Assembly: GCF_021065005.1 (NCBI RefSeq) | Contig: NZ_CP069247.1 | Coordinates: 186,001 to 250,000 of the forward strand | Reading direction: 5' to 3' | Source of the DNA: Candidatus Gromoviella agglomerans | GTDB lineage: Bacteria > Pseudomonadota > Alphaproteobacteria > CAJXXZ01 > G021065005 | DNA length: 64,000 nt | Part shown: in pieces, positions 7,304 to 58,059 of the stretch | How positions within the stretch are numbered: position 1 is the stretch's first letter | Layout: each line of letters opens with the position of its first letter | Notes under the pieces: model-generated | Databases searched by the model: none | What the model was told of the DNA's origin: nothing | The model's input: only the letters and a program-made list of their open reading frames with translations | Position numbers and translations under genes: made by a program

Positions 7304-7337
7304 AAATATAAATCACTCAAAAATATAAATCACTCAA
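7304..7337. repeat. 17-bp x2 tandem duplication spanning the glmS stop codon
   Basis: Two perfect adjacent copies (7304-7320 and 7321-7337) of AAATATAAATCACTCAA. The second copy contains the last codons and TGA stop of glmS (stop complement at 7330-7332); the first lies just downstream of the gene. Confidence 0.9.
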
Positions 7338-9135
7338 CAGTAACAGACTTAGCTAAATTTCTTGGTCGATCAACGTTTTTTCTGCGAAATTCCGCACAAA
7401 AACAGGCTAATAACTGCATAGAAATCGCAAATGCAATTGGAGAAAATAAACTCTTTAAATTAGGTAACTTTATCGATTTGAAATTTAAATGATTAACCAC
7501 ATCAAATTCATCGCAATCAGAAATCACATAAACTTTTGCATTTCTGGATAAAATTTCTTCTACAGTAGAAAGCACACTTTGCACGTTACCAATATAATTC
7601 GAAAACAAAATGACAACAGGCATGTTTTCATCCAAAAGAGCAAAACTACCGTGCTTTAGCTCACCAATAGCAATAGCTTCAGCATGAATATAAGATAACT
7701 CCTTCATCTTCAGAGCACCTTCAAGCGCAATGACATGAAGATCTCCTCTACTAAGAAAAATACAATTTTGAAACTGCGCAATTTCATTCGCAATATCACG
7801 AATGTCTTTAGATGAATTAAAAACTATTTCACACAAAGTTTGAATATTTTTACTACTATCAACTAAATTAAAAAACTCATCACTGTTCGCTAACAGAATA
7901 AAAAGTAAAGTCAATACCTGAGCTGTAAACGCCTTTGTTGATGCAACACTAATCTCAGCTCCAGCATTAATAAAAATACTTTTGTCGCATAATCTTGCTA
8001 ATGTACAAATTTGAACATTTAAAACTGCATAATTTGTATAACCTAAAGATTTTGCTCGCTCACAAGCAGAAATTGTGTCAAAAGTCTCACCTGACTGAGA
8101 AACAAAAACACACAAATTTTTACCTTCTATGTTAATGAGATTTTTAAATCTAAACTCCGATGCTAATTCAACAAATATATGTTTATTTAAAAAACGTTCA
8201 CTCATAGCTCGTGCACCAAGACATGCATAATATGCAGAACCGCACCCGATTAGAGTAATCGCATCAAATGAAGATACTTGCAATTCAGCATAATGGCCAC
8301 GACGACATAAAAAATCCTCAACTAAACCAGACAATATATCAGGCTGTTCATGAATCTCTTTCATCATAAAGGATGAGTAATGACCTTTATCAAATAATGA
8401 ACCACAAATCTTTATAGAGATAAATTTCTTCTCGACATTTTCATTATCACGATACACACTCACAGAATTCTTAGACAAAACAGCAATCTCCATTGATTCT
8501 AAGTCTGAATATTCACTAGCAATATCATTAATTGCATTAATATCAGAAGCTAAGCAATTCAATGCATCACCTCTTCCAATAATCATTGGAGCATTCCCCT
8601 TCTTACATGCAAAAATTTTATCAGGAAAATTCTGACATATCAGAGCAATCGCAAAATTACCATCAAACTCCTGCAAAATATCAGACAAGCATTTTACAAA
8701 AACACCAACACTCGTTGCAGAATTCATTTCAAATAATCTCTTGACAAATAATTCAGTATCTGTTTCAGTCTCAAACAAAATTCCACGAGTTATCATTTCT
8801 TTTTTCAATTTTGCAAAGTTACTTATGATCCCATTATGAACAACAGCAAAGCCACCGAAGTATTGTGGATGAGCATTAATCTCACTAACACCGCCATGAG
8901 TGGCCCATCTAGTATGGCCAATTCCAATATCAAATTGACTATTCCAAATATAATCATCTTTTAAGTTAGTTATTAAATTTTCTACAAACCCCACATTTTT
9001 CTTTAATAACATATTTCCATTTGAATCAATCACGGCAACTCCAGACGAATCATATCCACGATATTCAAGCAATTTCATCGAATTTAATATATTATCAAGA
9101 CAATTTTGACCTACAATTCCAACAATTCCGCACAT
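7330..9135 (-). CDS. glmS: Glutamine-fructose-6-phosphate aminotransferase
   Basis: Makes glucosamine-6-phosphate from fructose-6-phosphate and glutamine, the entry step to UDP-GlcNAc. Class II glutaminase domain starts with the catalytic Cys2 (MCGIVGIVG) and shows YRGYDSSGVAV and GIGHTRWATHGG; two SIS sugar-isomerase domains follow (GCGSAYYACLGAR; VSQSGETFDTI; ISVASTKAFTAQ; LSRGDLHVIALEGALKMKELSYIHAE). It ends in the family-typical RPRNLAKSVTVE. Length of 601 aa is normal. It begins 13 bases after glmU, so the two form a UDP-GlcNAc operon. There is no sign of a glmS ribozyme upstream. Confidence 0.97.
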   Translation of the reverse strand: MCGIVGIVGQNCLDNILNSMKLLEYRGYDSSGVAVIDSNGNMLLKKNVGFVENLITNLKDDYIWNSQFDIGIGHTRWATHGGVSEINAHPQYFGGFAVVHNGIISNFAKLKKEMITRGILFETETDTELFVKRLFEMNSATSVGVFVKCLSDILQEFDGNFAIALICQNFPDKIFACKKGNAPMIIGRGDALNCLASDINAINDIASEYSDLESMEIAVLSKNSVSVYRDNENVEKKFISIKICGSLFDKGHYSSFMMKEIHEQPDILSGLVEDFLCRRGHYAELQVSSFDAITLIGCGSAYYACLGARAMSERFLNKHIFVELASEFRFKNLINIEGKNLCVFVSQSGETFDTISACERAKSLGYTNYAVLNVQICTLARLCDKSIFINAGAEISVASTKAFTAQVLTLLFILLANSDEFFNLVDSSKNIQTLCEIVFNSSKDIRDIANEIAQFQNCIFLSRGDLHVIALEGALKMKELSYIHAEAIAIGELKHGSFALLDENMPVVILFSNYIGNVQSVLSTVEEILSRNAKVYVISDCDEFDVVNHLNFKSIKLPNLKSLFSPIAFAISMQLLACFCAEFRRKNVDRPRNLAKSVTVE

Positions 9136-9148
9136 AAAAATCTCTAAC

Positions 9149-10468: not shown

Positions 10469-10532
10469 TGTCAAAAAAAATAATGTATTTATAAAATATA
10501 CAGCAAAAATATCAATAAATAAAATTTCTTGG

Positions 10533-10617
10533 AGGAAAGAGAGGGATTCGAACCCTCGATACTTTTCAGTATACACACTTTCCAGGCGTGCGCTTTCGTC
10601 CACTCAGCCATCTTTCC
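10533..10617 (-). tRNA. tRNA-Ser (GGA)
   Basis: An 85-nt class II tRNA. Acceptor GGAAAGA pairs with TCTTTCC; anticodon stem CACGC/GTGTG encloses CTGGAAA, giving anticodon GGA; a long variable arm (TATACTGAAAAGTATC) follows; T arm is GAGGG-TTCGAAT-CCCTC. The discriminator would be T rather than the usual G for serine tRNA, and CCA is not encoded. Confidence 0.92.
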
Positions 10618-10624
10618 AGATTTC

Positions 10625-10652
10625 ATTTTAACACGAAATAACGATTTGTAAA
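10625..10652 (-). promoter_or_regulatory. Promoter of tRNA-Ser
   Basis: Read on the minus strand: TTTACA, a 16-bp spacer and TAAAAT, ending seven bases before the tRNA 5' end. Both boxes match sigma-70 consensus at five of six bases. Confidence 0.45.
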
Positions 10653-15580: not shown

Positions 15581-16042
15581 CTATATCTTATCGAGAGTGC
15601 AGTAAATATTATGTGACTTTAATTCATTAATCTTTTTATTTGCAGCATGACTATCGTACTTTTCTTTGCTCACGACATAAAATAATCCATCTATATTAAT
15701 GACTTCTGTGTCATATTTGTGCTGATTCATCAACTTTTGCACCATAATATTTGCCAGATTGAACCTCTTAAATGATCCAAAACTAATCACATAATCATTT
15801 TCAATCAATACATCATGCTGTTGTTTATGAATTTGCGCGTACATATCCTCATTGTTTCTCAGAATATGTGATAACAGCAATCCTGAGATCGCAAAAAGAA
15901 CACCTAGACACATCAAAGAAAGACTAAATATTATAAATGGTTTTTTAAATACTGTTACAGTATCAGAATCAATTTTAGGAGTCAAAACTTGAGGAATTTC
16001 TTTAGACAAATCATCTTTCACCCATATTATTTCGTTTTGCAT
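15581..16042 (-). CDS. SPOR-domain inner-membrane protein
   Basis: 153 residues: a cytoplasmic leader of about 33 aa, one transmembrane helix (about 35-60), a short linker and a C-terminal domain (about 80-153) reading YVISFGSFKRFNLANIMVQK ... YDTEVI ... FYVVSKEKYDSHAANKKINELK. The pattern Y-V-x-x-GSF ... A ... L ... YRV-like ... A ... L fits the SPOR fold, which binds denuded glycan strands at the division septum (FtsN and relatives). The domain order matches FtsN-like proteins but without a long linker. The family assignment is by pattern. Confidence 0.55.
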   Translation of the reverse strand: MQNEIIWVKDDLSKEIPQVLTPKIDSDTVTVFKKPFIIFSLSLMCLGVLFAISGLLLSHILRNNEDMYAQIHKQQHDVLIENDYVISFGSFKRFNLANIMVQKLMNQHKYDTEVINIDGLFYVVSKEKYDSHAANKKINELKSHNIYCTLDKI

Positions 16043-16300
16043 AATGTTAAGATTCGTTTTGTATTAAGTTACGATTTAATCATTAAAAAAACGTGAAGTT
16101 TTTTTTGAAGATATACATTAAAATTCTGAATGATGTATCAAAAAAAGATCGATTAGTTATAAACAGAGTAAAAAAATATATAAATTATATAATAAGTATT
16201 TTACAATTTACACCTGATTAATAAAAACTAATACTTGATTTTTAATTAAAAATTAAATATATTAATGCTAATTGTAAACAGAATATTTTAAACTCACTTC

Positions 16301-16750
16301 ATGAACTCGCGCAATTATTTTGATGTATTCATGTCCGCAAGCAGAATAAACAAGCTATTTTTAGATGTGCTAAAATTTGAGCTTGATAAAATGAATATTA
16401 CAGACATAACAAGTGTACAAGCAGTTATATTGTACAATATCGGAAGATCAAAACTATCAGTTGGAGATATTATTAGTAAAGGATATTATATAGGCTCAAA
16501 TGTATCATACAATATCAAGAAAATGATCGATGCTCAGTATATCTTGCAGGAAATTTCTGAATACGATAAAAGGATCAATCAAATTCAACTTACTGAGAAG
16601 GGAATGGATCTATACGAAAAAATTCATGAAAAAATCATAAAATACGGATTAGGAAAAGAAGGAATAAAAGTGCAATCAAATGATATAGAATCGACTTTCA
16701 AAAAGATGTATGTAATAGAATCTGCACTGAATTCCATCGCAAAAAGATAA
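16301..16750 (+). CDS. MarR-family winged-helix regulator, LdtR-like
   Basis: 149 residues with a MarR winged helix: a dimerising N-terminal helix (INKLFLDVLKFELDKMNI), then DITSVQAVILYNIG, a helix-turn-helix with KGYYIGSNVSYNIKKMIDAQ (recognition helix), and a wing ending IQLTEKG. The motif GYY-GSNVSYN-KK is characteristic of the alphaproteobacterial LdtR subgroup, which in Liberibacter controls a cell-wall L,D-transpeptidase and stress tolerance. It is the only clear transcription factor in the window. Its target is unknown; the divergent SPOR-protein gene (start 16042) shares the upstream spacer and is a candidate. Confidence 0.75.
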   Translation: MNSRNYFDVFMSASRINKLFLDVLKFELDKMNITDITSVQAVILYNIGRSKLSVGDIISKGYYIGSNVSYNIKKMIDAQYILQEISEYDKRINQIQLTEKGMDLYEKIHEKIIKYGLGKEGIKVQSNDIESTFKKMYVIESALNSIAKR

Positions 16751-16975
16751 ACGATTCTGTAAGAATTATTCTAATGCATTAACAATTTTCTTCAAAATTC
16801 AAGATCAGCATTTAATACAGTGTTAGATAATAATATTATAAGATTCACTAAAAACACAAAATAAAGATATGGCCTTACTAAGCAAAGAACAAATCAGCTT
16901 ATGAAACATTTACGATATTTTTAATAAATTAATATATATCAAATAAAAATATCACATGCATTTTGAAATTTTAAT

Positions 16976-17908: not shown

Positions 17909-18066
17909 AGCGAATTCAATACTAGCAAATTAACATATATGATGTAATATTTAAATGCAACTTAATCGAAACGAGTATCAAAATTATTAAAAATAAATAA
18001 TATATGTCAACAAAAAAAATCTAGCATATAAGAAATATCTCGACATAAAAATTTTTCCGTAAAGAT

Positions 18067-18709: not shown

Positions 18710-18814
18710 AAGCAAAAATTCATATAATTCCAAGAGCAAAAAAAAGTCCAACGTTATAAAGAATTGTATAGAATAAACAAGCAAAAATTCATATAATTCC
18801 AAGAGCAAAAAAAA
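18710..18814. repeat. 36-bp x2 direct repeat in the infC-murA spacer
   Basis: Identical 36-base copies at 18710-18745 and 18779-18814, centred on AAAATTCATATAATTCCAAG, separated by 33 bases. The second copy ends seven bases before the murA ATG and so carries the murA leader and any ribosome-binding element; CATATAAT could serve as a -10 box in each copy. Confidence 0.85.
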
Positions 18815-18821
18815 CAGTGAA

Positions 18822-20156
18822 ATGGAGAAAAAAATTATAGTATCAGGAAAAGAAATAATGTCTGGTGAGATAAAAATTCAGGGAGCAAAAAACTCATCTC
18901 TCCTTTTAATTGCATGCAGTATATTGACAAATGATGAATTGATCTTGAGAAATATTCCCAACATCACAGACATTTTTAACATGATCGATCTATTACAGGA
19001 ATGCGGAGTAAAAATAGATTTATCAAAAGAACAAAACCACAACAATTCACCAACGGATGGTGTTTCTTATGAAGCAAAAATGAAATACATAGGTAGACCA
19101 AAACTATCAGAAATAAAGTTCAGCGATAAAGCTGGAAAGATTCGCACTTCAATCATCTTATTGGGGCCATTGTTATCTCGGGGCATCTCAGTAATTTTAG
19201 AAAAACCTGGAGGATGCAACCTCAACCTCGGCACTCGCGCAATAGACATGCACATAGACGCATTAACAAAAATGGGGGCTACAATTACAATAAACGAAAA
19301 CGAAGGCAAGGAATATGTCTTCGCACAAGCTCCTAAATCATTACAATCAATCGACTACACATTTCGACAAATATCAGTCACCGCAACTGCAAATGTAATC
19401 ATGGCTGCATCTCTTGCAAATGGAAGTAGCATACTGAGAAACATCGCAATAGAACCAGAAATCGTAAATCTTATAGAAATGCTAAAATGCATGGGAGCTC
19501 AAATCGAATTCATATCAGAGCGAACAGTATCTATCACTGGAGTGCAAAATTTAAGAGGCACAAAACATGATGTAATTTTAGACCGAATCGAAGCTGGAAC
19601 GTATATGATACTAGCCGCCGCAATTGGAGAAAAGGTCAAAATTCATATAGATCCATCTCTTGTAAAAAATACAACCGAAACTCTGAGGTTAATTGGAGCT
19701 TCAATCAAAGAATACGATGAACATGTAGAAATAAGTAGATCAAATCTAAGAGCTATTAACCTCAAAACAGGGCCATATCCTGAATTTTCTACAGACCTAC
19801 AACCCCAATTAGTATCAATACTTTGCATCGCAAATGGAAAATCAGAAATTGAAGAGACAATGTTTGATAACAGATTTCACCATGTCAATGAATTAAAAAA
19901 AATGGGAGCAAGCATCACTCTTGAAAAATCACAAAAATCTATCGGAAGCATCATTCACATTAACGGAGTGAGCAAATTAACACACGCATCAGTTGATGCT
20001 CATACTCTAAGAGATGCAGCAGCAATGGTGATCGCTGGTTTAATATCGACAGGAGAAACTCACATCAATAATATCGAGAATCTACACAGAGGATACGGAA
20101 ATTTGGTTGAGAAGCTGAAATCATGCAAAATGAATATCAAGTACGAAGAAGTCTAA
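18822..20156 (+). CDS. murA: UDP-GlcNAc 1-carboxyvinyltransferase
   Basis: First committed step of peptidoglycan synthesis: adds enolpyruvate to UDP-GlcNAc. Seen: GAKNSSLLLIACSILT with Lys23/Asn24, the catalytic Cys132 in the loop EKPGGCNLNLGTRAIDMH, DRIEAGTYMILAAA, and FDNRFHHVNELKKMGA. Having Cys rather than Asp at this position predicts fosfomycin sensitivity. About 10 extra residues (near 68-80, NHNNSPTDG) enlarge an N-terminal loop; total 444 aa versus about 420. The gene uses UDP-GlcNAc made by GlmU/GlmS at 7-10 kb. Just past its stop two imperfect copies of TAACCATCA..ATAACAA occur. Confidence 0.96.
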   Translation: MEKKIIVSGKEIMSGEIKIQGAKNSSLLLIACSILTNDELILRNIPNITDIFNMIDLLQECGVKIDLSKEQNHNNSPTDGVSYEAKMKYIGRPKLSEIKFSDKAGKIRTSIILLGPLLSRGISVILEKPGGCNLNLGTRAIDMHIDALTKMGATITINENEGKEYVFAQAPKSLQSIDYTFRQISVTATANVIMAASLANGSSILRNIAIEPEIVNLIEMLKCMGAQIEFISERTVSITGVQNLRGTKHDVILDRIEAGTYMILAAAIGEKVKIHIDPSLVKNTTETLRLIGASIKEYDEHVEISRSNLRAINLKTGPYPEFSTDLQPQLVSILCIANGKSEIEETMFDNRFHHVNELKKMGASITLEKSQKSIGSIIHINGVSKLTHASVDAHTLRDAAAMVIAGLISTGETHINNIENLHRGYGNLVEKLKSCKMNIKYEEV

Positions 20157-20352
20157 TAACCATCAGTCATAACAAAATAATTTGAATGTTATGAAATTAA
20201 CCAAGTAACCATCAATTATAACAATCGCCTCACAAAGAATCTTATAGCAGACACTGAGAGTATCATCAAAAAGATTCAATCAACACTCCCAGTTTAACGA
20301 AAAAATAACATTTGTAAAACTAAACTTGCACAGTCGCACATACATTTTTCTA

Positions 20353-28310: not shown

Positions 28311-28735
28311 TCATTATTGAGCAGAATCACCTGCGCGACACTCACTCATTATTATGCAGAATCACCTGCGCGACATTCACTCATTATTATGCAGAATCAT
28401 CTGCGCGACATTCACTCATTATTATGCAGAATCACCTGCGCGACACTCACTCATTATTGAGCAGAATCACCTGCGCGACACTCACTCATTATTGAGCAGA
28501 ATCATCTGCGCGACATTCACTCATTATTGAGCAGAATCATCTGCGCGACATTCACTCATTATTGAGCAGAATCATCTGCGCGACATTCACTCATTATTAT
28601 GCAGAATCACCTGCGCGACATTCACTCATTATTGAGCAGAATCATCTGCGCGACATTCACTCATTATTGAGCAGAATCACCTGCGCGACACTCACTCATT
28701 ATTGAGCAGAATCACCTGCGCGACACTCACTCATT
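28311..28735. repeat. 35-bp x12 tandem array (minisatellite)
   Basis: Twelve head-to-tail copies starting every 35 bases from 28321 to 28706; the last is cut after 30 bases, and ten bases of a unit precede the first. Each unit begins GCAGAATCA(C/T)CTGCGCG and continues GACA(C/T)TCACTCATTATT then AT or GA. The only differences are those two C/T sites and the final dinucleotide. The unit is near 48% G+C in AT-rich surroundings. It is not a multiple of three and frames across it break, so it is noncoding. There are no unique spacers, so it is not CRISPR. It lies 35 bases beyond the radC stop codon. Confidence 0.97.
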
Positions 28736-34786: not shown

Positions 34787-35294
34787 ATTTACTCAAAATA
34801 GAAAATTTTGAAAAAAAGTTTTGAAATTATTCAGAATATCAATAAACTACAGAATTACTAACGATTTTCAAAATACTTCAACAATGCAATATATGGCTTA
34901 ACCAAATTATATAAAAGATAAAAAAATAGATATGAAATATTCTCATTTCGAAATTACTGCAAACAATCATACAGATAAAATTAATCTTGTAGTAAATAGT
35001 TGAATTGAGTAGTGCAAAAATATAATAATTACACTAAATCTTAAAAGATCACATAACAGGAAATTCCTATTCCAAATATCAATATCATGATGAATACAAG
35101 AAATATCAATATCATGATGAATACAAGTATTATAATGATAATTCAGGAGTTAATAAAAAAACATTAGCATTTATATAAAGCACCAACTTTTGCAATCGCA
35201 TCACCCACACATAACTCACAACTCGCACCATCAACTGATAAAAGCACCAACTTTTGCAATGGCATCACCCACACATAACTCACAACTCGCACCA
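34787..35294. other. 508-bp spacer holding two sets of tandem repeats
   Basis: Between the convergent comF and fabZ genes. The left half shows nothing; 35074-35127 holds a 27-bp duplication and 35180-35307 holds two extra copies of the fabZ 3' end. Frames across these repeats are by-products. Confidence 0.6.
35074..35127. repeat. 27-bp x2 tandem repeat
   Basis: Two perfect adjacent copies (35074-35100, 35101-35127) with core TATCAATATCATGATGAATA. The inner ATCATGAT is palindromic. Not linked to a gene end. Confidence 0.9.
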
Positions 35295-35328
35295 TCAACT
35301 GATAAAAGCACCAACTTTTGCAATGGCA
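35180..35328. repeat. 64-bp tandem duplication of the fabZ 3' end
   Basis: Units begin at 35180, 35244 and 35308 with GCACCAACTTTTGCAAT. The third start lies inside fabZ (complement of its last codons); after 21 bases it diverges from the other two. The fabZ stop (35295-35297) lies within the second unit. Copies 1 and 2 differ at one base in the core (TCGCA versus TGGCA). Unit length is not a multiple of three. Confidence 0.92.
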
Positions 35329-35744
35329 ACTACATCACCTTCGACCTTTGCTTCACAAGAGAAAAGAAAATAATCACCCAATTCCTTAATCTTCTTAACA
35401 TACAATTGCAATAAATCTCCAGGCACAACCTTTTTCTTAAACTTAGCATCAGTTATACTAGATAAATATGCAATTTTGCTATCTTTCTTGGTAAGACAAT
35501 TGAATGTAACTATACAAGTTTGAGCCATTGCTTCTAAAATCAGCACTCCAGGCATCACAGGCTCTTGCTTAAAATGCCCTTGAAAAAACCATTCATTAAA
35601 CGAAACACATTTAATGCCAGTAGCACTATAATCTTCACAAACATCAATAACTCTATCAAGAAGCAACATCGGATAAGAGTGAGGTAAGATTTTTATAATC
35701 TCATCGATAAATACTTCTTTCATATAAAAATAAACAGCGCTCAC
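35295..35744 (-). CDS. fabZ: 3-hydroxyacyl-ACP dehydratase
   Basis: Hot-dog-fold dehydratase of type II fatty acid synthesis. Motifs: LPHSYPMLLLDRV, FFQGHFKQEPVMPGVLILEAMAQ with the catalytic His (GHF) and Glu (LEAMAQ), and KFKKKVVPGDLLQL. 149 aa is normal. The C-terminus ends AIAKVGAFIS at a stop codon inside a tandem repeat, so the tail (usually VAxAEI-x-A) may once have read on differently. Not clustered with lpxD/lpxA here. Confidence 0.95.
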   Translation of the reverse strand: MSAVYFYMKEVFIDEIIKILPHSYPMLLLDRVIDVCEDYSATGIKCVSFNEWFFQGHFKQEPVMPGVLILEAMAQTCIVTFNCLTKKDSKIAYLSSITDAKFKKKVVPGDLLQLYVKKIKELGDYFLFSCEAKVEGDVVAIAKVGAFIS

Positions 35745-35891: not shown

Positions 35892-36033
35892 AAAAAATTA
35901 CTCCAAAAATATTAAAATACTCAACCATCAAATGAAAAACACATAGCTAACAACGCATAACAACCATAAAGTGAAAAACACATAAATTTTATCAATAACA
36001 CTTACATGTATAATAAAAAAATTACTCCAAAAT
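35892..36033. repeat. Diverged repeat pair around the RND gene 3' end
   Basis: AAAAAATTACTCCAAAA occurs at about 35892-35909 and again at about 36015-36032, where it is the complement of the RND gene's last codons and stop. Between them TGAAAAACACATA occurs twice (about 35933 and 35972). This looks like an older, partly eroded 3'-end duplication of about 124 bp. Confidence 0.5.
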
Positions 36034-39000
36034 CACCTTCTTTTTCGCAAAAGGCTTAATATAAGAATAAACAACTGGAAAAACTAACAATATAAATAAA
36101 GTTCCTGTAGACATACCTCCAACAATAACCCAACCAAGCTGTCTCCTCACAGCAGAACCAGTACCAGTAGCAAGAGCTAAAGGCAAAGATCCAAGCACCA
36201 TAGCAAATGTAGTCATTAATATCGCACGCCATCTCAATAAACAAGCATTTATAATAGCAGATTGAATACTGTATCCATCTCTGACCATTTTATCCGCAAA
36301 ATCAACTATCAATATTCCATGCTTCGTGATAAGACCAACTAAAGTAATAAATCCAATATTACTAAATATATTCAAGCTACCATCAGGAATCAATCTCAAT
36401 GTGAAAAGCGCACCACTAAGAGCCAAAGGCACAGTGAACATAACTATCAAAGGAGACACAAAACTCTCAAATTGAGCAGCCATAATAAGAAAAACAAATA
36501 CAATAGCGAGCAAGAACATAATCAATGTAGTATTTGACTCTTCTATCACTCGCACTAAATCTTGTCCTGGAGATAAAAATACTCCATCAGGCAAAAAAGC
36601 AGATACATCATTCTTTATAGATTTATACACATCAAGATTAGAACATCCCTCTCGAACTTTCACTCCAAATCCAATCGTACGCAACGCACCAGAATGCTTA
36701 ACTTCTGGAAATTTCGAAACCTGTCGCATTTTGAAAACATCATTTAATGAAACAGATCCTTTTTTAACAGGATACATAAAAGTAAATATATCCTTTTCAG
36801 TTTCTCTAAATTCCTTATCAGCCACAATTAACACCCGATAACGAGCATAACCATCAGTAGAGAAAGTAGTAACATGCTTTCCGTGCCATATCGCAGACAT
36901 CTGATCTGCAACATCTCTTAAATTAGTAACACCAAGAGAAGTTAACATATCCAGATCTATAGTTAACTCAATCTCAGAAATTCGCTCAGATAAATCCCAT
37001 TGAGCATAATGCACATTAGGATTCATTCTTAATTGCGATAAAACAACACCAGCATTTGAAATCAAATCATCATAGTTTCCATTACTTTGCAACAAAAATG
37101 TAAAATCGTACTGCTTACTACTAGATGAAGATAACAAACTAGAAGGAGCATAAGCATAAAACTGTACAACATTCGACATTTTCTTAAATTCCTCATTCAT
37201 AATCTTCGCTAACTCAAATGAAGAACGCTTTCTTCCCTTTTTTAGGGTCAAAACTAAATAATTTTCATCACTCAACTGAACAGCTGATATTATATCCTTT
37301 ACCTCTGGAAAACTTCTTGCTAACTTCTCAACATTTCGAACATATGGCTCAGATTTATCTAATGGAGTACCAAAATGCGTAAGCCCACTAATATAAATCT
37401 GCCCTATATCATCAGGTTTTGAAAATTCTGAAGGCAAAGATACAAACGAAATAGTAGCAAAAACAGATAAAAACACAAGTCCTATAAGGACATAATGCTT
37501 AAAATTCATCACAAAATTCAGATAATTTTCATATAATCTACGCAATCTTTCATCAAAACTACTAAACCAACCAAAACACCCTTCCAAAACTCTACTAGAA
37601 CTAGATGAAGACAATAATCTTGCACACATCATAGGAGATAAAGTAATAGCAACAAAACCAGAAATCAAAACACAACCAGCAAGAGTAACAGCAAATTCTC
37701 TAAAAAACTTCGCTGTCGTACCACCGTAAAGCAAAATGGGCAAATAAACTGCACTCAAAGTAAAAGTCATCGCAATAACAGCAGAGCTTATCTCGCCAAA
37801 CCCTTTCTTAGCAGCCTCAAATGGAGCGTAACCTTGCTCTACATAGCGATATATATTCTCCAAAACCAAAATTGCATCATCAACTAACAGACCAACGGAT
37901 AAAACTAATGCCAACAATGTAATAACGTTTATACTAAAACCGAAAAATTTAATGATCATGAAAGTAGAAATTAAACATATCGGAATAGTAATAACAGGAA
38001 CGATGGAACCTCTAAAAGAACGCAAGAAAAGCAATATCGTAATAACAACCAAAATCACCGCCTCTATTATACTTTTGTAAACCTCAAATATAGAATCCTT
38101 AACAGAATCAGAAGCATCATAAGCTACATCCAATTTCATTCCACCTGGCAATCTGTCTCGAAGTGAAGGCAAAATCTTCATCACTTCTTTGGAAACATCA
38201 ACAGGATTTGTATGAGAAATAATATGAATAAAAATAGCACGATTGCCATTAAAATATGCACGACTTTTCTCCTTCTCAGCAGACAAACTCACCTTTCCAA
38301 CATCACGAAATTTTATGATCGACCCATCATTAGTCATGATTGGAATATCACCGTATTCTTCTTCCGTCTTCAAATCATTTACTAGAACAACACTCATCTC
38401 AGAATCTTTGTTCTCGAAACGACCGATGTTGAGGCGATTTATATTAATATCATAAACAGCCTTAACCACATCATTAGATGATATTCCATAATGATTGAGT
38501 TTTATAGAATTAAGCAAAATTCTCATCTCTGGCTGAGATCCACCATATGTTATCGCACTTGCAACACCTGGCAAAGATGCTAATAAACTCTCCAAATTTC
38601 TCACAGAATAATCGTACAAAGATGAACGATCAAATGCATCTCCATACAATACCAAATACATAACAGGAGAAGAGTCTACATCAGCTTTTGTAACTTTCTG
38701 AACAAAATTTTTCGGCAAAACTTCATTTAACTGTTGCATAGAAGATAAAACATCAACGTACGCTGTATTAATGTTAGCATCTTCTCTAAACTTTAACTTA
38801 ACAAGCGTCCTATCATTTTCACTTCTAGAATCGATACTTTTTAACGACTCGATACTAGCAAACCGATCCTCCAAAACCTTAGTCACTTGCATCTCCATAA
38901 CATCAGAGCTAAACCCAGGACATCTAACCTCAACCGTAATAACTGGATAAGATATCTTCGGATATTCCCTCACTCCAATTTGAAAATAACAGACAATACC

Positions 39001-39069
39001 AGCGACAGTAATCATTATACTCATAACCCAAGCCAAAACTGGCCTGTATATAAAGAAATTTAAATTCAT
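36022..39069 (-). CDS. RND (HAE1-type) efflux pump, inner-membrane subunit
   Basis: 1,015 residues with the AcrB plan: N-terminal helix (FIYRPVLAWVMSIMITVAG), first porter loop, TM2-7 with the proton-relay aspartates in GLLVDDAILVLENIYR, TM with AITLSPMMCARLL, a second large porter loop and the final helix bundle (IMAAQFESFVSPLIVMFTVP, ITLVGLITKHGILIVDFAD). Drives proton-coupled export of drugs, lipids or similar. It is preceded by its membrane-fusion protein with AAGGAG 13 bases upstream. No outer-membrane channel gene lies nearby, so a shared TolC must be supplied elsewhere. The substrate is unknown. Confidence 0.95.
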   Translation of the reverse strand: MNLNFFIYRPVLAWVMSIMITVAGIVCYFQIGVREYPKISYPVITVEVRCPGFSSDVMEMQVTKVLEDRFASIESLKSIDSRSENDRTLVKLKFREDANINTAYVDVLSSMQQLNEVLPKNFVQKVTKADVDSSPVMYLVLYGDAFDRSSLYDYSVRNLESLLASLPGVASAITYGGSQPEMRILLNSIKLNHYGISSNDVVKAVYDININRLNIGRFENKDSEMSVVLVNDLKTEEEYGDIPIMTNDGSIIKFRDVGKVSLSAEKEKSRAYFNGNRAIFIHIISHTNPVDVSKEVMKILPSLRDRLPGGMKLDVAYDASDSVKDSIFEVYKSIIEAVILVVITILLFLRSFRGSIVPVITIPICLISTFMIIKFFGFSINVITLLALVLSVGLLVDDAILVLENIYRYVEQGYAPFEAAKKGFGEISSAVIAMTFTLSAVYLPILLYGGTTAKFFREFAVTLAGCVLISGFVAITLSPMMCARLLSSSSSSRVLEGCFGWFSSFDERLRRLYENYLNFVMNFKHYVLIGLVFLSVFATISFVSLPSEFSKPDDIGQIYISGLTHFGTPLDKSEPYVRNVEKLARSFPEVKDIISAVQLSDENYLVLTLKKGRKRSSFELAKIMNEEFKKMSNVVQFYAYAPSSLLSSSSSKQYDFTFLLQSNGNYDDLISNAGVVLSQLRMNPNVHYAQWDLSERISEIELTIDLDMLTSLGVTNLRDVADQMSAIWHGKHVTTFSTDGYARYRVLIVADKEFRETEKDIFTFMYPVKKGSVSLNDVFKMRQVSKFPEVKHSGALRTIGFGVKVREGCSNLDVYKSIKNDVSAFLPDGVFLSPGQDLVRVIEESNTTLIMFLLAIVFVFLIMAAQFESFVSPLIVMFTVPLALSGALFTLRLIPDGSLNIFSNIGFITLVGLITKHGILIVDFADKMVRDGYSIQSAIINACLLRWRAILMTTFAMVLGSLPLALATGTGSAVRRQLGWVIVGGMSTGTLFILLVFPVVYSYIKPFAKKKVILE

Positions 39070-41743: not shown

Positions 41744-42114
41744 CAATTATTTTGCATCAAGATCAATTCTGTACATTTTACTTGTTCATAAATCATAATT
41801 ATTTGTCCATCATGTAATATCTGAAAGATAAGTGAGCCATTTGGTGGATTAATAAAAATATTTTCCAATTATCAATAGTGCAGGTATATATTAAAAATCA
41901 TATTGTGAATAAGATAATTGAATTTGAAATTACATCTTCGAAAATAAATAAGGTTTATAAATATGAACAAAACTAAGCAGAATAAACACCATCAAAAATG
42001 CCATCAATTGTTGCATCCATAGCGTTTATAAATATGAACAAAACTAAGCAGAATAAACACCATCAAAAATGCCATCAATTGTTGCATCCATAGCGTTTAT
42101 AAATATGAACAAAA
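41744..42114. other. 371-bp spacer, right half made of pdhA tail copies
   Basis: 41744-41952 holds no supportable gene; 41953-42114 is covered by two complete extra copies, and the start of the third copy, of the 71-bp unit that ends pdhA. Confidence 0.6.
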
Positions 42115-42165
42115 CTAAGCAGAATAAACACCATCAAAAATGCCATCAATTGTTGCATCCATAGC
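41953..42165. repeat. 71-bp x3 perfect tandem repeat including the pdhA 3' end
   Basis: Three identical units start at 41953, 42024 and 42095, each beginning GTTTATAAATATGAACAAAA. The third holds the pdhA stop (complement at 42115-42117) and last 16 codons; the first two repeat that tail, stop and 20 downstream bases. A further GTTT at 42166 marks the unit boundary inside the gene. 71 is not a multiple of three. Confidence 0.97.
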
Positions 42166-43152
42166 GTTTCTCGCATCATCGTAAGCGCTTGATATTATTA
42201 CTCGAATGTGCTCTTTCACAAAATCAACAACTTCTGCCCCACAATCGTGTGATAACTCATCTTCTAAGCGCATAAGTGGGTCTATACCTTTCATCTCATT
42301 GACCTCATCCTTTGTTCTATATAAAGCAGGATCTGACATTGAATGTCCTTTATACCTATAAGTTTTCATCTCAACAAGCTGTGGAGTTTGAGTTTTACGT
42401 ACATTTTCTATAATATTCATTAAGGAATTTCTGGCAGTTTTTACATCCATTCTTTCAATTAAAGTACCTTTTATTCCGTAAGGCTCACCTCTTTTAAACA
42501 AATCTCCCGCACAAGCACGCTCGCAGCTAGTTCCCATTCCATATCCATTATTTTCTATTATATAAAGCACAGGTAATTTCCACAAAGCAGCCATGTTGAA
42601 TGCCTCATACACCTGCCCCTGATTACTAGCCCCATCTCCCATAAAAGTCACAGTTATTCCACCATCTTCCTTATATTTGTGAGCAAAAGCAAGACCTGTC
42701 CCAATAGGGACTTGCGCTCCAACTATTCCATGTCCTCCCCAAAATCCTTCTTTTGTGTTAAACAAGTGCATTGATCCACCTTTTCCTTTAGCAGAGCCAG
42801 TAACTTTACCCATAAGTTCACTAAATATAGAGAATGGGGATGCTCCACTTAACAACATATGACCATGACACCTATAAGCTGTGATTACACTATCTTGTGG
42901 CAATAAAACAGACTGAACTGAAGTAGCCACTGCTTCTTGGCCAATGTATAAATGACAAAATCCGCCAATCTCTCTTTTACCATACACCGCGCCACATTTT
43001 TCTTCAAATTTTCTTATGAGATGCATTGCATAGTAAAGACTGATGCTCTCAAGCTGCAAAGAATTAAAATTAGCGTTTAGATTCTTAAGACATTTCTCCA
43101 ACTCAAAAACATTAAATTTATGAAAAGGGCACAAATTCATAATGTTCATCAC
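42115..43152 (-). CDS. pdhA: Pyruvate dehydrogenase E1 component, alpha subunit
   Basis: Thiamine-diphosphate-dependent decarboxylation of pyruvate, with PdhB. Seen: YAMHLIRKFEEKCGAVYGKR, GFCHLYIGQEAV, YRCHGHML, the TPP/Mg motif GDGASNQGQVYEAFNMAALW closing with ENNGYGMGTS, and the phosphorylation-loop-like YRYKGHSMSDPALYR. 345 aa; about 20 extra residues at the N-terminus before the core. The C-terminal codons form part of a 71-bp repeat. It diverges from pdhB over a 124-bp spacer instead of forming the usual pdhA-pdhB operon. Confidence 0.96.
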   Translation of the reverse strand: MMNIMNLCPFHKFNVFELEKCLKNLNANFNSLQLESISLYYAMHLIRKFEEKCGAVYGKREIGGFCHLYIGQEAVATSVQSVLLPQDSVITAYRCHGHMLLSGASPFSIFSELMGKVTGSAKGKGGSMHLFNTKEGFWGGHGIVGAQVPIGTGLAFAHKYKEDGGITVTFMGDGASNQGQVYEAFNMAALWKLPVLYIIENNGYGMGTSCERACAGDLFKRGEPYGIKGTLIERMDVKTARNSLMNIIENVRKTQTPQLVEMKTYRYKGHSMSDPALYRTKDEVNEMKGIDPLMRLEDELSHDCGAEVVDFVKEHIRVIISSAYDDARNAMDATIDGIFDGVYSA

Positions 43153-50983: not shown

Positions 50984-50996
50984 TTCATCTCCTATA

Positions 50997-51751: not shown

Positions 51752-54700
51752 TTATTTTCTTTTTTTATCCTTATTTCCATGATTGTTTTCATGTGGCATC
51801 ATCACCATTCTATATCTACTTTTCGTCTTTTGGGCTTTATTTATAATAATTCCAAAGCGATTATCATCAAGTCTAAACAATCTTAGTGATTGATTTGGCA
51901 AATTAAAACGAAATTTAATGTCTCTCTCAGAATCCTGATTATCTGACTTGAGCAAAGTTATCTCTTCAATTTTATCTGTTTTCAATACAACCGCATAATC
52001 ACTTAAATGTGATGCACTATCGATAAAATTAATAATGTCTATAACGTTATAAGCGCCAGTATTATCAGGAAAAACCTCAACACCCTCATAATACATAGAA
52101 TGATCGTTTTCACAAACATGAGGAATATGATTATTATATTCGTCAGAAATAACATCTACTTTAGATTCTCTTATCTTAAACTCAGGCAAATTTTTTTCAT
52201 TTACAATCTCAGGATTAGCATGAAGATTAACACTCATATAAGGTTGTGAATCAATTTTCTGCTGAGCATTAAACAATTTCCAGTAATTTTTATGAATTTT
52301 TTGTCGTTGATGAGGATCATAATGAATTAAAACATGATCAGAGCATATGTCTTGATGATAGTGATCGCCATCTGATGTTTTCATAGAATTATCAACAAAT
52401 CGAGAATTTATATCAAAATATATCAATTCAGTAACAGATTCAGTCTGCACTTCCTGATCAGACATTTGATGAGGCGACCCAGTCTGCACTTCCTGATTCT
52501 GAGACTCGAATGCCGTTTGCACTTCCTGATTCTGAGACTCGAATGCCGTTTGCACTTCCTGATCAGACATTTGATGAGGTGACCCAGTTTGCACTTCCTG
52601 ATCAGACATTTGATGAGGTGACCCAGTCTGCACTTCCTGATTCTGAGACTCGAATGCCGTTTGCACTTCCTGATTCTGAGACTCGAATGCCGTTTGCACT
52701 TCCTGATTCTGAGACTCGAATGCCGTTTGCACTTCCTGATTCTGAGACTCGAATGCCGTTTGCACTTCCTGATTCTGAGACTCGAATGCCGTTTGCACTT
52801 CCTGATTCTGAGACTCGAATGCCGTTTGCACTCCCTGATTCTGAGACTCGAATGCCGTTTGCACTTCTTTCGCAAGCATTTGAGGAGATACCTGAATCTC
52901 AACACCCTTAATAGATGTATCTGCAGTCTGAGTATCTCTCTCTATAAACGTTTTAGATTTCAGAGCATCAAATTCCTTTCTTAATAGATTTAACTGATTA
53001 TGCAAAATTTCTTTTTGATGAGTCGTATCTATCAAAGCATCATGTAGCTGTAGATTCTCTGTTTTTTGCACCCTCAGAGCCGCTAACTGCTGCTCGTGCT
53101 GCTGCCTCAGAGCCGCCAGCTGCTGATCTTTCTCAGCCACCTGCTGCTCGTGCTTCTGCTTCAGAGCCACCAACTGCTGCTCGTTATCGGCCACCTGCTG
53201 CCTCAGAGCCACCACCTGCTGCTCGTGCTGCTGCCTCAGAGCCGCCAGCTGCTGATCTTTCTCAGCCACCTGCTGCTCGTTATCGGCCAGCTGCTGCCTC
53301 AGAGCCACCACCTGCTGATCTTTCTCAGCCACCTGCTGCTCGTGCTGCTTCCGCAAATCCGCCAGCTCCCGATCTTTCTCAGCCACCTGCTGCCTCAAAT
53401 CCGCTAACTCCCGATCTTTCTCAGCCACCTGCTGCCTCAAATCCACCACCTGCTGCTCGTTATCGGCCACCTGCTGCCTCAGAGCCACCACCTGCTGCTC
53501 GTGCTGCTGCCTCAGAGCCACCACCTGCTGATCTTTCTCAGCCACCTGCTGCTCGTTATCGGCCAGCTGCTGCCTCAGAGCCACCACCTGCTGATCTTTC
53601 TCAGCCACCTGCTGCTCGTGCTGCTTCCGCAAATCCGCCAGCTCCCGATCTTTCTCAGCCACCTGCTGCCTCAAATCCGCTAACTCCCGATCTTTCTCAG
53701 CCACCTGCTGCCTCAAATCCACCACCTGCTGCTCGTGCTGCTGCCTCAGAGCCACCACCTGCTGCTCGTTATCGGCCAGCTTCTGCCTCAAATCCGCCAG
53801 CTGCTGCTCGTTATCGGCCAGCTTCTGCCTCAAATCCGCCAGCTGCTGCTCGTTATCGGCCAGCTTCTGCCTCAGAGCCACCACCTGCTGCTCGTGCTGC
53901 ACCTTCAGAGCCACCACCTGCTGCTCGTTATCGGCCAGCTGCTTCCGCAAATCCGGCAACTGCTGCTCGTTATCGGCCACCTGCTGCTCGTGCTTCTGCT
54001 TCAGAGCCACCAACTGCTGCTCGTTATCGGCCAGCTGCTTCCGCAAATCCGCCAACTGCCGCTCATTATCGGCCACCTGCTGCTTCAGAGCCACCACCTG
54101 CTGCTCGTGCTGCACCTTCAGAGCCACCACCTGCTGCTCGTTATCGGCCAGCTTCTGCCTCAAATCCACCACCTGCTGATCGTTATCGGCCAGCTTCTGC
54201 CTCAAATCCGCCAACTGCTGCTCGTGCTTCTGCTTCAGAGCCACCACCTGCTGCTCGTTATCGGCCAGCTTCTGCCTCAAATCCACCACAGCCTGCGATT
54301 CAGCTAATTGATCTGCTAAACTTTCTACCACATGACCACCTGCTTCATAATCAGAAAAATCTGCATCAAATGAATTTGATGGCAAGTCATCATGTTGCTC
54401 ACGCAGTATCTTATTTTCCCCACGCAATTCATCATTTTCCCCACGCAGTATCTTATTTTCTCCACGCAATATATTATATTGAGCAAGCAATTCCTCATTT
54501 TCACCAAGCAATGTCTTATATTCACTAAGCAATTCCTCATTTTCTCCACGCAATTGATTATTTTCACCACACAATTCCTCATTTTTCCCACGCAATTGAT
54601 TATTTTCCCCACGCAATTGATTATTTTTATCACGCAATTCATTCAAACAAGGACGTACTTCTAATAATTCTGCTTCTAATGCTTCATTCTTTTGTTGAAA

Positions 54701-56626
54701 AGAATCCAACTGTCGATTTATTTCCACTAAATGTTGACTTTGAAGATTATAATTCTCAATTATACCTGCTCCAAATAGCAAAGAATCGACTATTGATTCT
54801 CCATAACCTGCAAATTGAGGATGCTTTTTTAGTTCAGAATATTGAGATAGCAGATTAACACCACCACCTGGCTTAGTAGAATCAATACGATACTTCAGAT
54901 CACTCATACAACTATTAATAAGGCCAACCAAATATCCAGTAATCTTCTGTATAGACTCTTTATCAACACCTCCTATGCGAAAGAGAATTAATCCTTGATT
55001 AATAAGATTTACAGCAGAAAACCCCTTAATATTTCGAGTATAATATTCGACCTCCTTAAGATTATTAATATTATTACGTAACTCTCTAGGCAAATAAGCA
55101 TCAATGGTATGCATACATATAGGAAGTTCTTCTTTATCATATACAATACGACCTAATCCTTCCTCGAGAAAAATTAATCCTTGACTAATAACATCCGGAT
55201 TAGTTTTATCCAAGGTATCCACCACTATCAGATCTAAGCTTCCGTCAGGGTCTATCTGTTCTTCTTCACTAATTGATTGGTGCAAAAAATCTAGCCTCAC
55301 CTTTTTTGGTGAGTTAGTCACCATCAATTTAGTCAGGTGATTCAGTTGCTTCATCAACGCATTAAAGTGATCTGGAGATTCATCACTCTCTGAATTTTGC
55401 TGATTTTCTTTTTGTATGGGTGATTGATGAATGATTTTAATGCATTCCAGTTCTTTTATAGCAGAATCTAGAGCTTTATTTTTTTCTTCAAGCTCAATCA
55501 CTTTTTCAGTACGCGCTTCGCATATTCTAACTAACTGCTTATTATGCATATCTAGCTCTGCAATTGACTGTTCATGAAGATTGTTTTTATTTCTAAGACG
55601 TTCTATCTCTGCATTGGCTTGATCGAGACATAGAGCGTACTCTTGATTTGTTGCTTTTAAAGATACCTGATATTCATGGTCCCGTTTATTTTGTTCATAA
55701 GATACACTAAGCTCATCTATAATGGATGGTATTATATTACTTACAAAATCCATAAGAGAAATTGGAGCGTCTAATCCACATGACTTACTAAGGGTTTCTG
55801 AATGCTTTTTCAGCTCATCTATAATGGATGGTATTACATTACTTACAAAATCCATAAGAGAAATTGGAGCGTCTAATCCACATGACTTACTAAGGGTTTC
55901 TGAATGCTTTTTCAGCTCATCTATAATGGATGGTATTACATTACTTACAAAATCCATAAGAGAAATTGGAGCGTCTAATCCACATGACTTACTAAGGGTT
56001 TCTGAATGCTTTTTCAGCTCATCTATCATCCTGATGAATTGTAGTGTAGGCTCCCCTTCGTCACCCAATTCTTTAGATAAATCAAGGTTTTCACACAATT
56101 GTATAATAAACTTTTCAAGTATCTGTAATCTTTCAAGTTTTTCTGCTACATCTCCATCTTGATTAAATTGCTCATCTTGCTTGGATTTTTTTACAAATTT
56201 ATCCTCAGAACTTGCACATTGCAACTGAAGAAATTGCACTTCCTCCTCTAATACTGCAATGCGTGAGTCCCTCTCTTTCAATTCGAGTTTTAATTTTTCT
56301 ATTTCATCAAGACTATTACGTGATTTAATCTCATATTCCAACTCTAGACGGGGTGAAATTGCCTCCGTAGATGGGCTATTCGGTTGAAGAGATTGATTAG
56401 GAAGCTCATCAATTAACTTTGCAAATAACTGTATCACACTATAAGTACCTGAGTTTCCACCTTGTACAATAATTTTATGCAATTGCGCACTGAGTCTATT
56501 AAATGCTTCTAATTGAGTACTTGACTCAGGACAAGTTGCCTCCAAATTAGAATTAGAACACATAGAAACTGTACTCCACATTGGTAAAATCGTAGTACAA
56601 ACTATTAATATGACCTTTTTCTTCAT
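51752..56626 (-). CDS. Giant exported coiled-coil repeat protein
   Basis: 1,624 residues, unlike any named family I know. A signal peptide (MKKKVILIVCTTILPMWSTV, cleavage near 23) is preceded by AGAGGT seven bases from the ATG. Order: N-terminal coil (about 90-200); three 34-residue repeats (204-306, IIDELKKHSETLSKSCGLDA...); coil with a globular part (about 420-620); 7-residue LRGENNQ/LLGENEE repeats (about 663-741); a long region of 14- and 11-residue units such as LADLRQKLADNEQQ and VVALRQQHEQQ (about 776-1190); EVQT repeats (about 1253-1396); and a non-repetitive C-terminal part of about 230 residues with a basic end. A long periplasmic or surface rod is likely; surface adhesin or host-directed factor is inference. 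Downstream of nothing; its own transcript divergent from xer. Confidence 0.8.
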   Translation of the reverse strand: MKKKVILIVCTTILPMWSTVSMCSNSNLEATCPESSTQLEAFNRLSAQLHKIIVQGGNSGTYSVIQLFAKLIDELPNQSLQPNSPSTEAISPRLELEYEIKSRNSLDEIEKLKLELKERDSRIAVLEEEVQFLQLQCASSEDKFVKKSKQDEQFNQDGDVAEKLERLQILEKFIIQLCENLDLSKELGDEGEPTLQFIRMIDELKKHSETLSKSCGLDAPISLMDFVSNVIPSIIDELKKHSETLSKSCGLDAPISLMDFVSNVIPSIIDELKKHSETLSKSCGLDAPISLMDFVSNIIPSIIDELSVSYEQNKRDHEYQVSLKATNQEYALCLDQANAEIERLRNKNNLHEQSIAELDMHNKQLVRICEARTEKVIELEEKNKALDSAIKELECIKIIHQSPIQKENQQNSESDESPDHFNALMKQLNHLTKLMVTNSPKKVRLDFLHQSISEEEQIDPDGSLDLIVVDTLDKTNPDVISQGLIFLEEGLGRIVYDKEELPICMHTIDAYLPRELRNNINNLKEVEYYTRNIKGFSAVNLINQGLILFRIGGVDKESIQKITGYLVGLINSCMSDLKYRIDSTKPGGGVNLLSQYSELKKHPQFAGYGESIVDSLLFGAGIIENYNLQSQHLVEINRQLDSFQQKNEALEAELLEVRPCLNELRDKNNQLRGENNQLRGKNEELCGENNQLRGENEELLSEYKTLLGENEELLAQYNILRGENKILRGENDELRGENKILREQHDDLPSNSFDADFSDYEAGGHVVESLADQLAESQAVVDLRQKLADNEQQVVALKQKHEQQLADLRQKLADNDQQVVDLRQKLADNEQQVVALKVQHEQQVVALKQQVADNERQLADLRKQLADNEQQLVALKQKHEQQVADNEQQLPDLRKQLADNEQQVVALKVQHEQQVVALRQKLADNEQQLADLRQKLADNEQQLADLRQKLADNEQQVVALRQQHEQQVVDLRQQVAEKDRELADLRQQVAEKDRELADLRKQHEQQVAEKDQQVVALRQQLADNEQQVAEKDQQVVALRQQHEQQVVALRQQVADNEQQVVDLRQQVAEKDRELADLRQQVAEKDRELADLRKQHEQQVAEKDQQVVALRQQLADNEQQVAEKDQQLAALRQQHEQQVVALRQQVADNEQQLVALKQKHEQQVAEKDQQLAALRQQHEQQLAALRVQKTENLQLHDALIDTTHQKEILHNQLNLLRKEFDALKSKTFIERDTQTADTSIKGVEIQVSPQMLAKEVQTAFESQNQGVQTAFESQNQEVQTAFESQNQEVQTAFESQNQEVQTAFESQNQEVQTAFESQNQEVQTAFESQNQEVQTGSPHQMSDQEVQTGSPHQMSDQEVQTAFESQNQEVQTAFESQNQEVQTGSPHQMSDQEVQTESVTELIYFDINSRFVDNSMKTSDGDHYHQDICSDHVLIHYDPHQRQKIHKNYWKLFNAQQKIDSQPYMSVNLHANPEIVNEKNLPEFKIRESKVDVISDEYNNHIPHVCENDHSMYYEGVEVFPDNTGAYNVIDIINFIDSASHLSDYAVVLKTDKIEEITLLKSDNQDSERDIKFRFNLPNQSLRLFRLDDNRFGIIINKAQKTKSRYRMVMMPHENNHGNKDKKRK
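52440..52872 (-). repeat. 33-bp and 39-bp in-frame repeats coding EVQT units
   Basis: Nine copies of an 11-residue unit EVQTAFESQNQ (33 bp; one starts GVQT) and three of a 13-residue unit EVQTGSPHQMSDQ (39 bp). Order in the protein: seven of the first, two of the second, two of the first, one of the second. The 33-bp copies are nearly identical in DNA, which implies recent spread or conversion. Confidence 0.95.
53060..54300 (-). repeat. G/C-rich coiled-coil repeat block (33/42-bp units)
   Basis: About 1.2 kb of mosaic units encoding 14-residue double heptads (LADLRQKLADNEQQ, LADLRQQVAEKDRE) and 11-residue hendecads (VVALRQQHEQQ). A larger stretch of some 240 bp recurs (around 53240-53480 and 53520-53720). 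The block is much richer in G+C than the genome, with codons like CAG, CTG, GCC, GAG favoured. Confidence 0.92.
54407..54640 (-). repeat. 21-bp in-frame heptad repeats
   Basis: About eleven degenerate 21-bp units coding LRGENNQ, LRGKNEE, LLGENEE, LRGENKI and similar; one exact heptad per unit, typical of a regular parallel coiled coil. Confidence 0.85.
55711..56016 (-). repeat. 102-bp x3 in-frame repeat
   Basis: Three nearly identical 102-bp units (starts 55711, 55813, 55915; a further partial start at 56017) coding 34 residues each with KKHSETLSKSCGLDAPISLM; only a V/I change (SNVIPS/SNIIPS) separates the copies. Each holds one cysteine. Confidence 0.95.
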
Positions 56627-56889
56627 ACTTTATACCTCTGCAAGTCCATTTATTTAACAATAACATTTAATAATATATGATTAAACCCAAACAAACAAAT
56701 AGTATGTATAGAAAATTTTGCTGTTTTATATAAAATGGTTCAAGTAAAATACAATAAATAAATTATATTTACTATACTAAATACTAAGGCTATTCAATAA
56801 ATAACATAATTAAACAAAAAAAATAAAATTTTCTCGTTGCATTCAGTTGATAAATAGCATATCTTTTATACTAGTTTTTTGTATCAAAA

Positions 56890-57831
56890 ATGCAAGATAT
56901 ACTTCAAGATGAAGTTATAAAATTATTAACAGACTATGAATCATGGATTTTGCATGAAAAGGCTTACGCAAAAAACACTTTATTCAACTACAAAAATGAC
57001 ATTAAATCACTGTTAATGTTTATGTTTGACAAACAAAAATGCAAAATTTCCTTAAGGGATATAAAGATGACCACTCCATCCTTAATTCGTGAATTTATGA
57101 CCTCAAAAATCATTTGCAAAAACAGCAAAAAACGCACTTTATCATCAATAAAATCACTACATAAATTCATGATTAAAAAAAAAATATTAAGTGAGAGCCA
57201 CATTTTATGCATGGAACAAGGGAAAGGTGAAAAACCAATTCCAAAACCAATCTCATACGAAGAAATCGTTAATATTATTAACAATTCTCCCAACAAACTT
57301 GCTCGCGCAGTATTTTTTTCTCTGTACGCAACGGGATTACGAATATCAGAACTCCTTTCACTGAGATTAACCGATCTCACATGCATGATACAAAAAAGAG
57401 AAATAATAGTAAAAGGAAAAGGAGAGAAAGAAAGATTAGTACCAATTATAAGCAAACAAATAAAACTGATTATAGATTATTTGTCAGAAAAATATAAAAT
57501 TCACGAATCAGAATTCGAAAACTTGATTCAACAAAAATCAAATGAATTCATATTTTCCTCGAAAAGAAATGTGGATAAACCACTGTCAGCGAGGTATATT
57601 CAGATAATCATGAAAACAATCATTGAAAAAAATGGAATACATAAAAGATATACACCTCATAGCTTTCGCCACAGCTTTGCATCTCACATGATTGAAGATG
57701 GAGCTCCCATTCGTCATGTTCAAGAATTGATGGGCCACAAATCCATAAGATCGACTCAAATATACACAAAAATAGATACTAGAAAATTCATTGCAAATCA
57801 TCAAAAATTCCATCCTCGAAATAATAATTGA
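56890..57831 (+). CDS. Tyrosine recombinase, Xer type
   Basis: 313 residues with an N-terminal SAM-like DNA-binding domain and a complete catalytic set: Arg151 (ATGLRISELLSLRL), Lys175 (IVKGKGEKER), His257 and Arg260 (PHSFRHSFASHM), His283 (LMGHKSIRSTQ) and Tyr292 (IYTKID). It ends HQKFHPRNNN, near the usual XerC/D end. XerC/XerD resolve chromosome dimers at dif; which of the two this is cannot be told without comparison. The stop codon arises where a tandem copy of the 3' end begins, so the last codons may have been altered by the duplication. Confidence 0.9.
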   Translation: MQDILQDEVIKLLTDYESWILHEKAYAKNTLFNYKNDIKSLLMFMFDKQKCKISLRDIKMTTPSLIREFMTSKIICKNSKKRTLSSIKSLHKFMIKKKILSESHILCMEQGKGEKPIPKPISYEEIVNIINNSPNKLARAVFFSLYATGLRISELLSLRLTDLTCMIQKREIIVKGKGEKERLVPIISKQIKLIIDYLSEKYKIHESEFENLIQQKSNEFIFSSKRNVDKPLSARYIQIIMKTIIEKNGIHKRYTPHSFRHSFASHMIEDGAPIRHVQELMGHKSIRSTQIYTKIDTRKFIANHQKFHPRNNN

Positions 57832-58059
57832 AGATGGAGCCCGTTGTTCAAGAATTGATGCATCACAAATCCATAAGATCGACTCAAATATACACAAAAA
57901 TAGATACTAGAAAATTCATCAAACCATCAAAAATTCCATCCTCGAAATAATAATTGAAGTGAAGCCCGTTGTTCAAGAATTGATGGGCCACAAATCCATA
58001 AGATCGACTCAAATATACACAAAAATAGATACTAGAAAATTCATTGCAAATCATCAAAA
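57691..58059 (+). pseudogene. Tandem copies of the recombinase 3' end
   Basis: Three repeats: 57691-57826 (inside the gene), 57827-57952 and 57953-58059. Each starts ATTGAAG and includes codons for VQELM-x-HKSIRSTQIYTKID with the catalytic His/Tyr. Copies 2 and 3 share a derived GCCCGTTGTTCAAG where the gene has GCTCCCATTCGTCATGTTCAAG-type sequence, so one was copied from the other. Copy 2 is damaged (MHHKS, then TRKFIKPSK); copy 3 keeps an open frame from a GTG at 57959 to 58156 but lacks the rest of the enzyme. Confidence 0.88.

Follow-up and report, generated by a model that had tools for sequence, protein, structure and literature searches.

Tandem repeats whose first unit lies in the end of a gene have been described in the archaeal Borg elements, which also carry in-frame units within ORFs and flanking partial repeats (PLoS Biol 2023, PMC9879509). 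The arrays that we describe here are similar in that they too begin within the 3' end of a gene. However, Borg repeats are perfect, A-rich, archaeal and extrachromosomal, whereas the present ones are found in a bacterial chromosome and their copies go from perfect to decayed (98% identity in the fabZ array and 93% in the Xer array). Unlike for the Borg repeats, the ratio of 3' to 5' cases has been measured here. In Ehrlichia ruminantium non-coding tandem repeats expand and contract (Collins 2005, Frutos 2006), as far as the summary in PMC10710844 goes. This bacterium provides another parallel, a reduced, AT-rich intracellular genome with tandem repeats in non-coding DNA, although it belongs to a different order. 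Head-to-tail units, together with intragenic units that keep the frame, are features of the variable number tandem repeats of reduced bacterial genomes and both were found here, as seen in one assembly. What we describe is a familiar process in which a bias has been measured, and not a new system. We found no earlier measurement of a 3'-versus-5' bias in Holosporales, in a search that reached few subscription papers.

The window, i.e., the whole 64-kb stretch of DNA that was analyzed, belongs to a genome (G000) of 589,967 bp in one contig with 31.8% GC (GC estimated from the sample). 'Candidatus Gromoviella agglomerans' has been described as a Holosporaceae symbiont of Paramecium polycaryum, with 590 kbp and 32% GC in one contig (PMC11909080). 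A sequence-only reading of the window had invoked E. ruminantium; this species is excluded as the source by the genome length and by the best PdhA identities, 50–62% in other genera. Because that reading had seen a single window and had chosen its cases, we extended the test outside the window, to a sample of 284 kb (the window plus 220 kb more, 48% of the genome), to a same-order comparison set of five genomes (~1.06 Mb) and to six genomes around Anaplasma/Rickettsiales (1.6 Mb, the Rickettsiales side). The same-order relatives include G002 (627,924 bp) and G007 (615,988 bp).

Gene-end arrays of the window

Arrays were located by Tandem Repeats Finder (TRF), and the four gene-end arrays of the sequence-only reading were all recovered at their places. 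Profile searches also gave the expected gene identities, GlmS, FabZ, pyruvate dehydrogenase E1 alpha, a XerC/D-like protein and an RND permease. The glmS array (7304..7337, reverse strand; 17 bp x2.0, 100% identity) lies over the stop at 7330-7332 of glmS (7330..9135, reverse strand; TIGR01135/NF001484), the gene contributing only 5 nt and the stop. The fabZ array (35177..35328, reverse strand; 64 bp x2.4, 98%) covers the stop at 35295-35297 of fabZ (35295..35744, reverse strand; NF000582), with 31 nt within the gene and 118 nt past it. In the case of pdhA (42115..43152, reverse strand; TIGR03182) the array (41953..42169, reverse strand; 71 bp x3.1, 100%) extends over the stop at 42115-42117, and a protein search finds two additional 17-aa copies of the C-terminus. 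The fourth array (57717..58059, forward strand; about 125 bp x2.7, diverged to 93%) spans the stop of a Xer-type tyrosine recombinase gene (56890..57831, forward strand; TIGR02224/TIGR02225, below the curated cut-offs), with 112 nt within the gene and 228 nt past it; copies are also apparent at the protein level at G000:C1:243843-244060. The identities found by TRF go from perfect down to 93%. In all four arrays the copy nearest to the gene holds the gene's own stop, past which there are 1.5 to 2.3 units. The profile matches extend to or near the C-terminus and thus these stops are the natural ones. The neighbors of fabZ, pdhA and Xer are all convergent, and the strong cases are located in promoter-free convergent spacers.

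To obtain a chance level for the window we ran 20 Markov-3 simulations, which gave 0.05 arrays per window with a score of at least 68 and none of at least 100, the observed numbers being 12 and 11. The pdhA, fabZ and Xer arrays are certainly far beyond chance, while the glmS repeat taken alone is marginal because its score of 68 sits at the simulated level of 0.05 per window. Downstream of the RND permease gene (36022..39069, reverse strand; profile match), where a weaker case had been suspected, the best repeat was an 11-bp ungapped match with a score of 22, within the range given by shuffled DNA, and this case is not supported. It is very improbable that the arrays as a whole come from misassembly or from the matches that AT-rich DNA gives by chance: the 17-bp glmS repeat and the RND match hardly exceed the chance level, if at all, but no simulated array scores above 100, the fabZ and Xer copies differ from one another, and the same kind of array appears in independent assemblies of relatives.

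The window contains other arrays as well. A repeat overlapping a gene start (16031..16076, reverse strand; 22 bp x2, 83%) belongs to ORF 15581-16042, which has no family match, and is a counter-example to the 3' focus. In the 5' flank of murA (18710..18840, forward strand; 69 bp x1.9) an exact 36-bp core stops 7 bp short of the ATG and the overlap with the start given by TRF is weak. An intergenic array of 35 bp x12 (28311..28735) is found 36 bp beyond a radC-like stop; this array is GC-richer than its surroundings and the upstream ORF codes for 533 aa with a C-terminal RadC domain. Beside the fabZ array there is a perfect intergenic repeat (35074..35127; 27 bp x2). We also examined the possibility that the extra copy at fabZ derived from an older FabZ end that had decayed. 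One of its frames does read like a FabZ tail, but the possibility was rejected, the 8-bp DNA match not being significant.

Several in-frame arrays are found within genes of the window. ORF 51752-56626 (reverse strand, 1624 aa) has at least four in-frame repeat blocks (units of about 33/144, 276/117, 42 and 102 bp), i.e., a large repeat protein, and sits in a GC-rich island (43% vs. about 32%). At 20611-20777 an in-frame repeat of 18 bp x9.3 was detected within ORF 20326-21588. Intergenic, start-overlapping, 5'-flank and in-frame arrays that do not fit a 3' focus had gone uncounted in the sequence-only reading. The focus itself recurs in other genomes of the order (see below) and does not come from the choice of a single window.

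Unit sequences and mobility

The units are mutually unrelated. The best match between any two of them is 18 nt (pdhA/xer), without extended similarity, and no copies exist elsewhere in the 284-kb sample other than two 16-nt matches at chance level; the pdhA region is single in the whole genome. A dispersed mobile repeat (MITE- or REP-like) was discarded, the units matching only their own arrays in the 284-kb sample. With units that neither resemble one another nor are scattered over the sample, no mobile repeat is involved, in agreement with what had been proposed.

Integrative elements that insert into gene 3' ends are established biology. The displaced 3' ends could in principle have been left by such elements, by duplication of the att site through a tyrosine recombinase; one of the affected genes is Xer-like and gene 3' ends are known as integration sites. 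Here, however, the copies are adjacent and directly head-to-tail, up to three of them, with no element or remnant between, and the units, of 17–125 bp, have no common core and occur nowhere else in the sample, which makes this origin extremely improbable.

Homology at the borders of the units is 4 bp (GTTT) in pdhA, where the lag run is 146 nt, 6 bp (GAAGTA) in the polynucleotide phosphorylase gene pnp, and 14 bp in one 114-bp intergenic array. In other arrays it is 0 bp, and some arrays finish in partial copies. Border homology and partial copies suit slippage or short-homology recombination, without proving either. The loss of recA, mutS or rho was considered as a cause and rejected, as all three genes are present in G000.

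RNA folding compared with shuffled sequences was not unusual for fabZ (z = 0.9), pdhA (0.3) and Xer (2.3), while glmS (–2.9) and pnp (–2.4) were somewhat more structured. At the fabZ and pdhA ends we saw neither a terminator-like site nor a hairpin. We give little credit to the idea that selection keeps the tandem 3' ends for a function, for instance as backup stop codons or as RNA elements of the 3' end. They recur in unrelated genes, including dnaA, tgt, ssb, pnp, pdhA and fabZ, but the copies decay (93% in Xer; in L103 the copies are partial and weaker), the units, mostly unstructured, are not related to one another, and those affected genes that were identified are not the same in different relatives.

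Gene ends and gene starts across genomes

In a test independent of the repeat finder, the 45 nt that close each gene were compared with 300 nt of downstream sequence, and the 45 nt that open it with 300 nt of upstream sequence, a displaced copy being counted at a score of at least 30 (at least 45 in a stricter variant). In the order, including G000, displaced 3' copies were found in 22 of 758 genes and 5' copies in 1 of 757, while shuffled targets gave 0 and 1, respectively. Gene starts came from a caller written by us, and the longest ORFs served as gene model for two very AT-rich relatives (G004 and G007); the asymmetry counts agree across three gene models, the other two giving 20:2 and 20:0 (3':5') in the same order. 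The asymmetry persists when G000 is left out (16:1, P = 0.0003). The 3' asymmetry is thus real and a property of this order.

The six Rickettsiales-side genomes showed no bias (12:9), and TRF found in them 2 arrays at stops and 6 at starts. The two groups differ at a score of at least 30 (Fisher P = 0.003), in a comparison that is post hoc and has ~20 events per group; at a score of at least 45 the order gave 11:1 and the contrast is no longer significant (P = 0.17). Part of this difference may be due to longer spacers on the Rickettsiales side. One of these genomes, of 1,516,355 bp, presumably the length of E. ruminantium Welgevonden, gave 6:3, i.e., no strong 3' bias, and in this it departs from the order studied here.

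In the order, among spacers of at least 100 bp, displaced 3' ends were found in 15 of 257 convergent vs. 7 of 281 codirectional cases. The genes that carry them are unrelated: dnaA, tgt, ssb, a T2SS F protein and others, a cytidylyltransferase and an RNase J fragment also being among them. Within the order, G002 has stop-spanning arrays like those of G000, whereas arrays are few in G007, with one case that spans a start.

A number of other features were noticed during these comparisons. G002 (L113-L117, L196-L202, L229-L231), in which tandem arrays number about 39 per 100 kb, is the densest genome sampled. In codirectional spacers of the Rickettsiales side (L136-L195) intergenic arrays lie closer to the gene that follows, on its 5' side (29 vs. 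12), and the Holosporaceae order shows the reverse (20 vs. 36). In L112, the polynucleotide phosphorylase gene (16266-18110, forward strand) falls about 75 residues short of the full family profile at its end and has a perfect 85-bp duplication across its stop; a single spacer of L112 (11552-12309) holds three side-by-side arrays (37 bp x6, 114 bp x3 and 25 bp x2.3). In L106, two neighboring genes (2226-3869 and 4074-5672) are each preceded, at about 56 bp, by an identical 17-bp x2 repeat (3925-3957 and 5729-5761); these repeats could be duplicated promoters belonging to related genes.

Mutation and selection at gene boundaries

The asymmetry could come from an excess at stops or from a depletion at starts. 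As a placement null, each unit was set at random, either in a non-coding position or across a gene boundary. For TRF units of at least 25 bp, the order has 14 arrays at stops, 2 at starts and 45 intergenic, the expectations being 8.7, 9.0 and 43.4 (P = 0.04 for 14 or more at stops; P = 0.003 for 2 or fewer at starts). Excluding G000 the figures are 10, 1 and 37 against 6.3, 6.7 and 34.9, with P = 0.09 for the stops. Among units of 10–24 bp there are 11 at stops where 4.7 are expected (P = 0.007). Tandem units at stops are therefore about 1.5 to 1.9 times the placement expectation and those at starts about 4 times too rare, so that it is clearly the depletion at starts that carries most of the asymmetry, the excess at stops being modest. 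Counted in this way, over the 48% sample and the relatives, stops are hit far more often than 5' ends, as predicted by the sequence-only reading, but only slightly more often than spacers. When the start and its upstream flank were forbidden, in a placement run on the four genomes whose genes were called best, the stop expectation went up to 9.2 vs. 14 observed (P about 0.05). Such a promoter-forbidding filter as the explanation of the whole stop excess had to be rejected, the excess being lowered and not removed. Inside genes, the eight arrays of G000 with units of at least 25 bp all have multiples of three and keep the frame, and in the order 10 long in-frame arrays are near the gene 3' end vs. 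3 near the 5' end.

In this order, some process linked to the ends of transcription (terminating or colliding RNA polymerases, R-loops or break repair via tandem duplication) might make gene 3' ends the preferred places of new duplications. The 1.5–1.9-fold stop excess, the preference for convergent spacers and the absence of the bias from the Rickettsiales-side genomes are all in its favor. We nevertheless consider it unlikely: for units of at least 25 bp the excess is not significant without G000 (P = 0.09), the asymmetry comes mostly from start depletion, and many arrays are purely intergenic or within genes. Besides, the fabZ, pdhA and Xer units lack unusual RNA structure (those of glmS and pnp are somewhat structured), no terminator-like site was seen at the fabZ or pdhA ends, and rho is present. 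A lineage-specific transcription-end process, strongest between convergent genes, that places tandem duplications over stop codons and makes 3' ends hotspots of new sequence, is quite doubtful. The sequence-only reading had also invoked a specific process at stop codons, the need for which finds no support in a rate of 1.5–1.9 times the non-coding expectation; the other option that it offered, that duplications on the 3' side are the only ones permitted by selection, is the one that fits best.

The gene-end duplications are thus probably ordinary tandem duplications, produced by slippage or at short homologies and filtered by selection. Small tandem duplications, with units of about 15–300 bp, would arise irrespective of where genes begin and end. 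Replication slippage, or recombination between short homologies, is the probable mechanism, and a part of the duplications would then grow to 3–12 copies. Their retention would be set by selection. Within genes only in-frame units would last, and duplications over starts or promoters would perturb expression and be mostly lost. Those over stops would keep the gene intact and drift, above all between promoter-free convergent genes, and the outcome would be a collection of unrelated 3'-end duplications. Two observations go against selection as the filter. Under equal selection the bias would be expected on the Rickettsiales side, yet the values there were 12:9 in the gene-end test and 2 stops vs. 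6 starts by TRF, and in the order a residual 1.5–1.9-fold stop excess is left, together with that of the short units. Even so, the 3' bias most likely reflects random small duplications that are harmless past stops and weeded out at starts.

In one order, by a count that was replicated, small tandem duplications thus persist almost exclusively 3' of genes (22:1), a bias that is missing from another repeat-rich order. Mutation versus selection at gene boundaries becomes testable in this way, and the arrays show how spacers grow in genomes that are otherwise shrinking.
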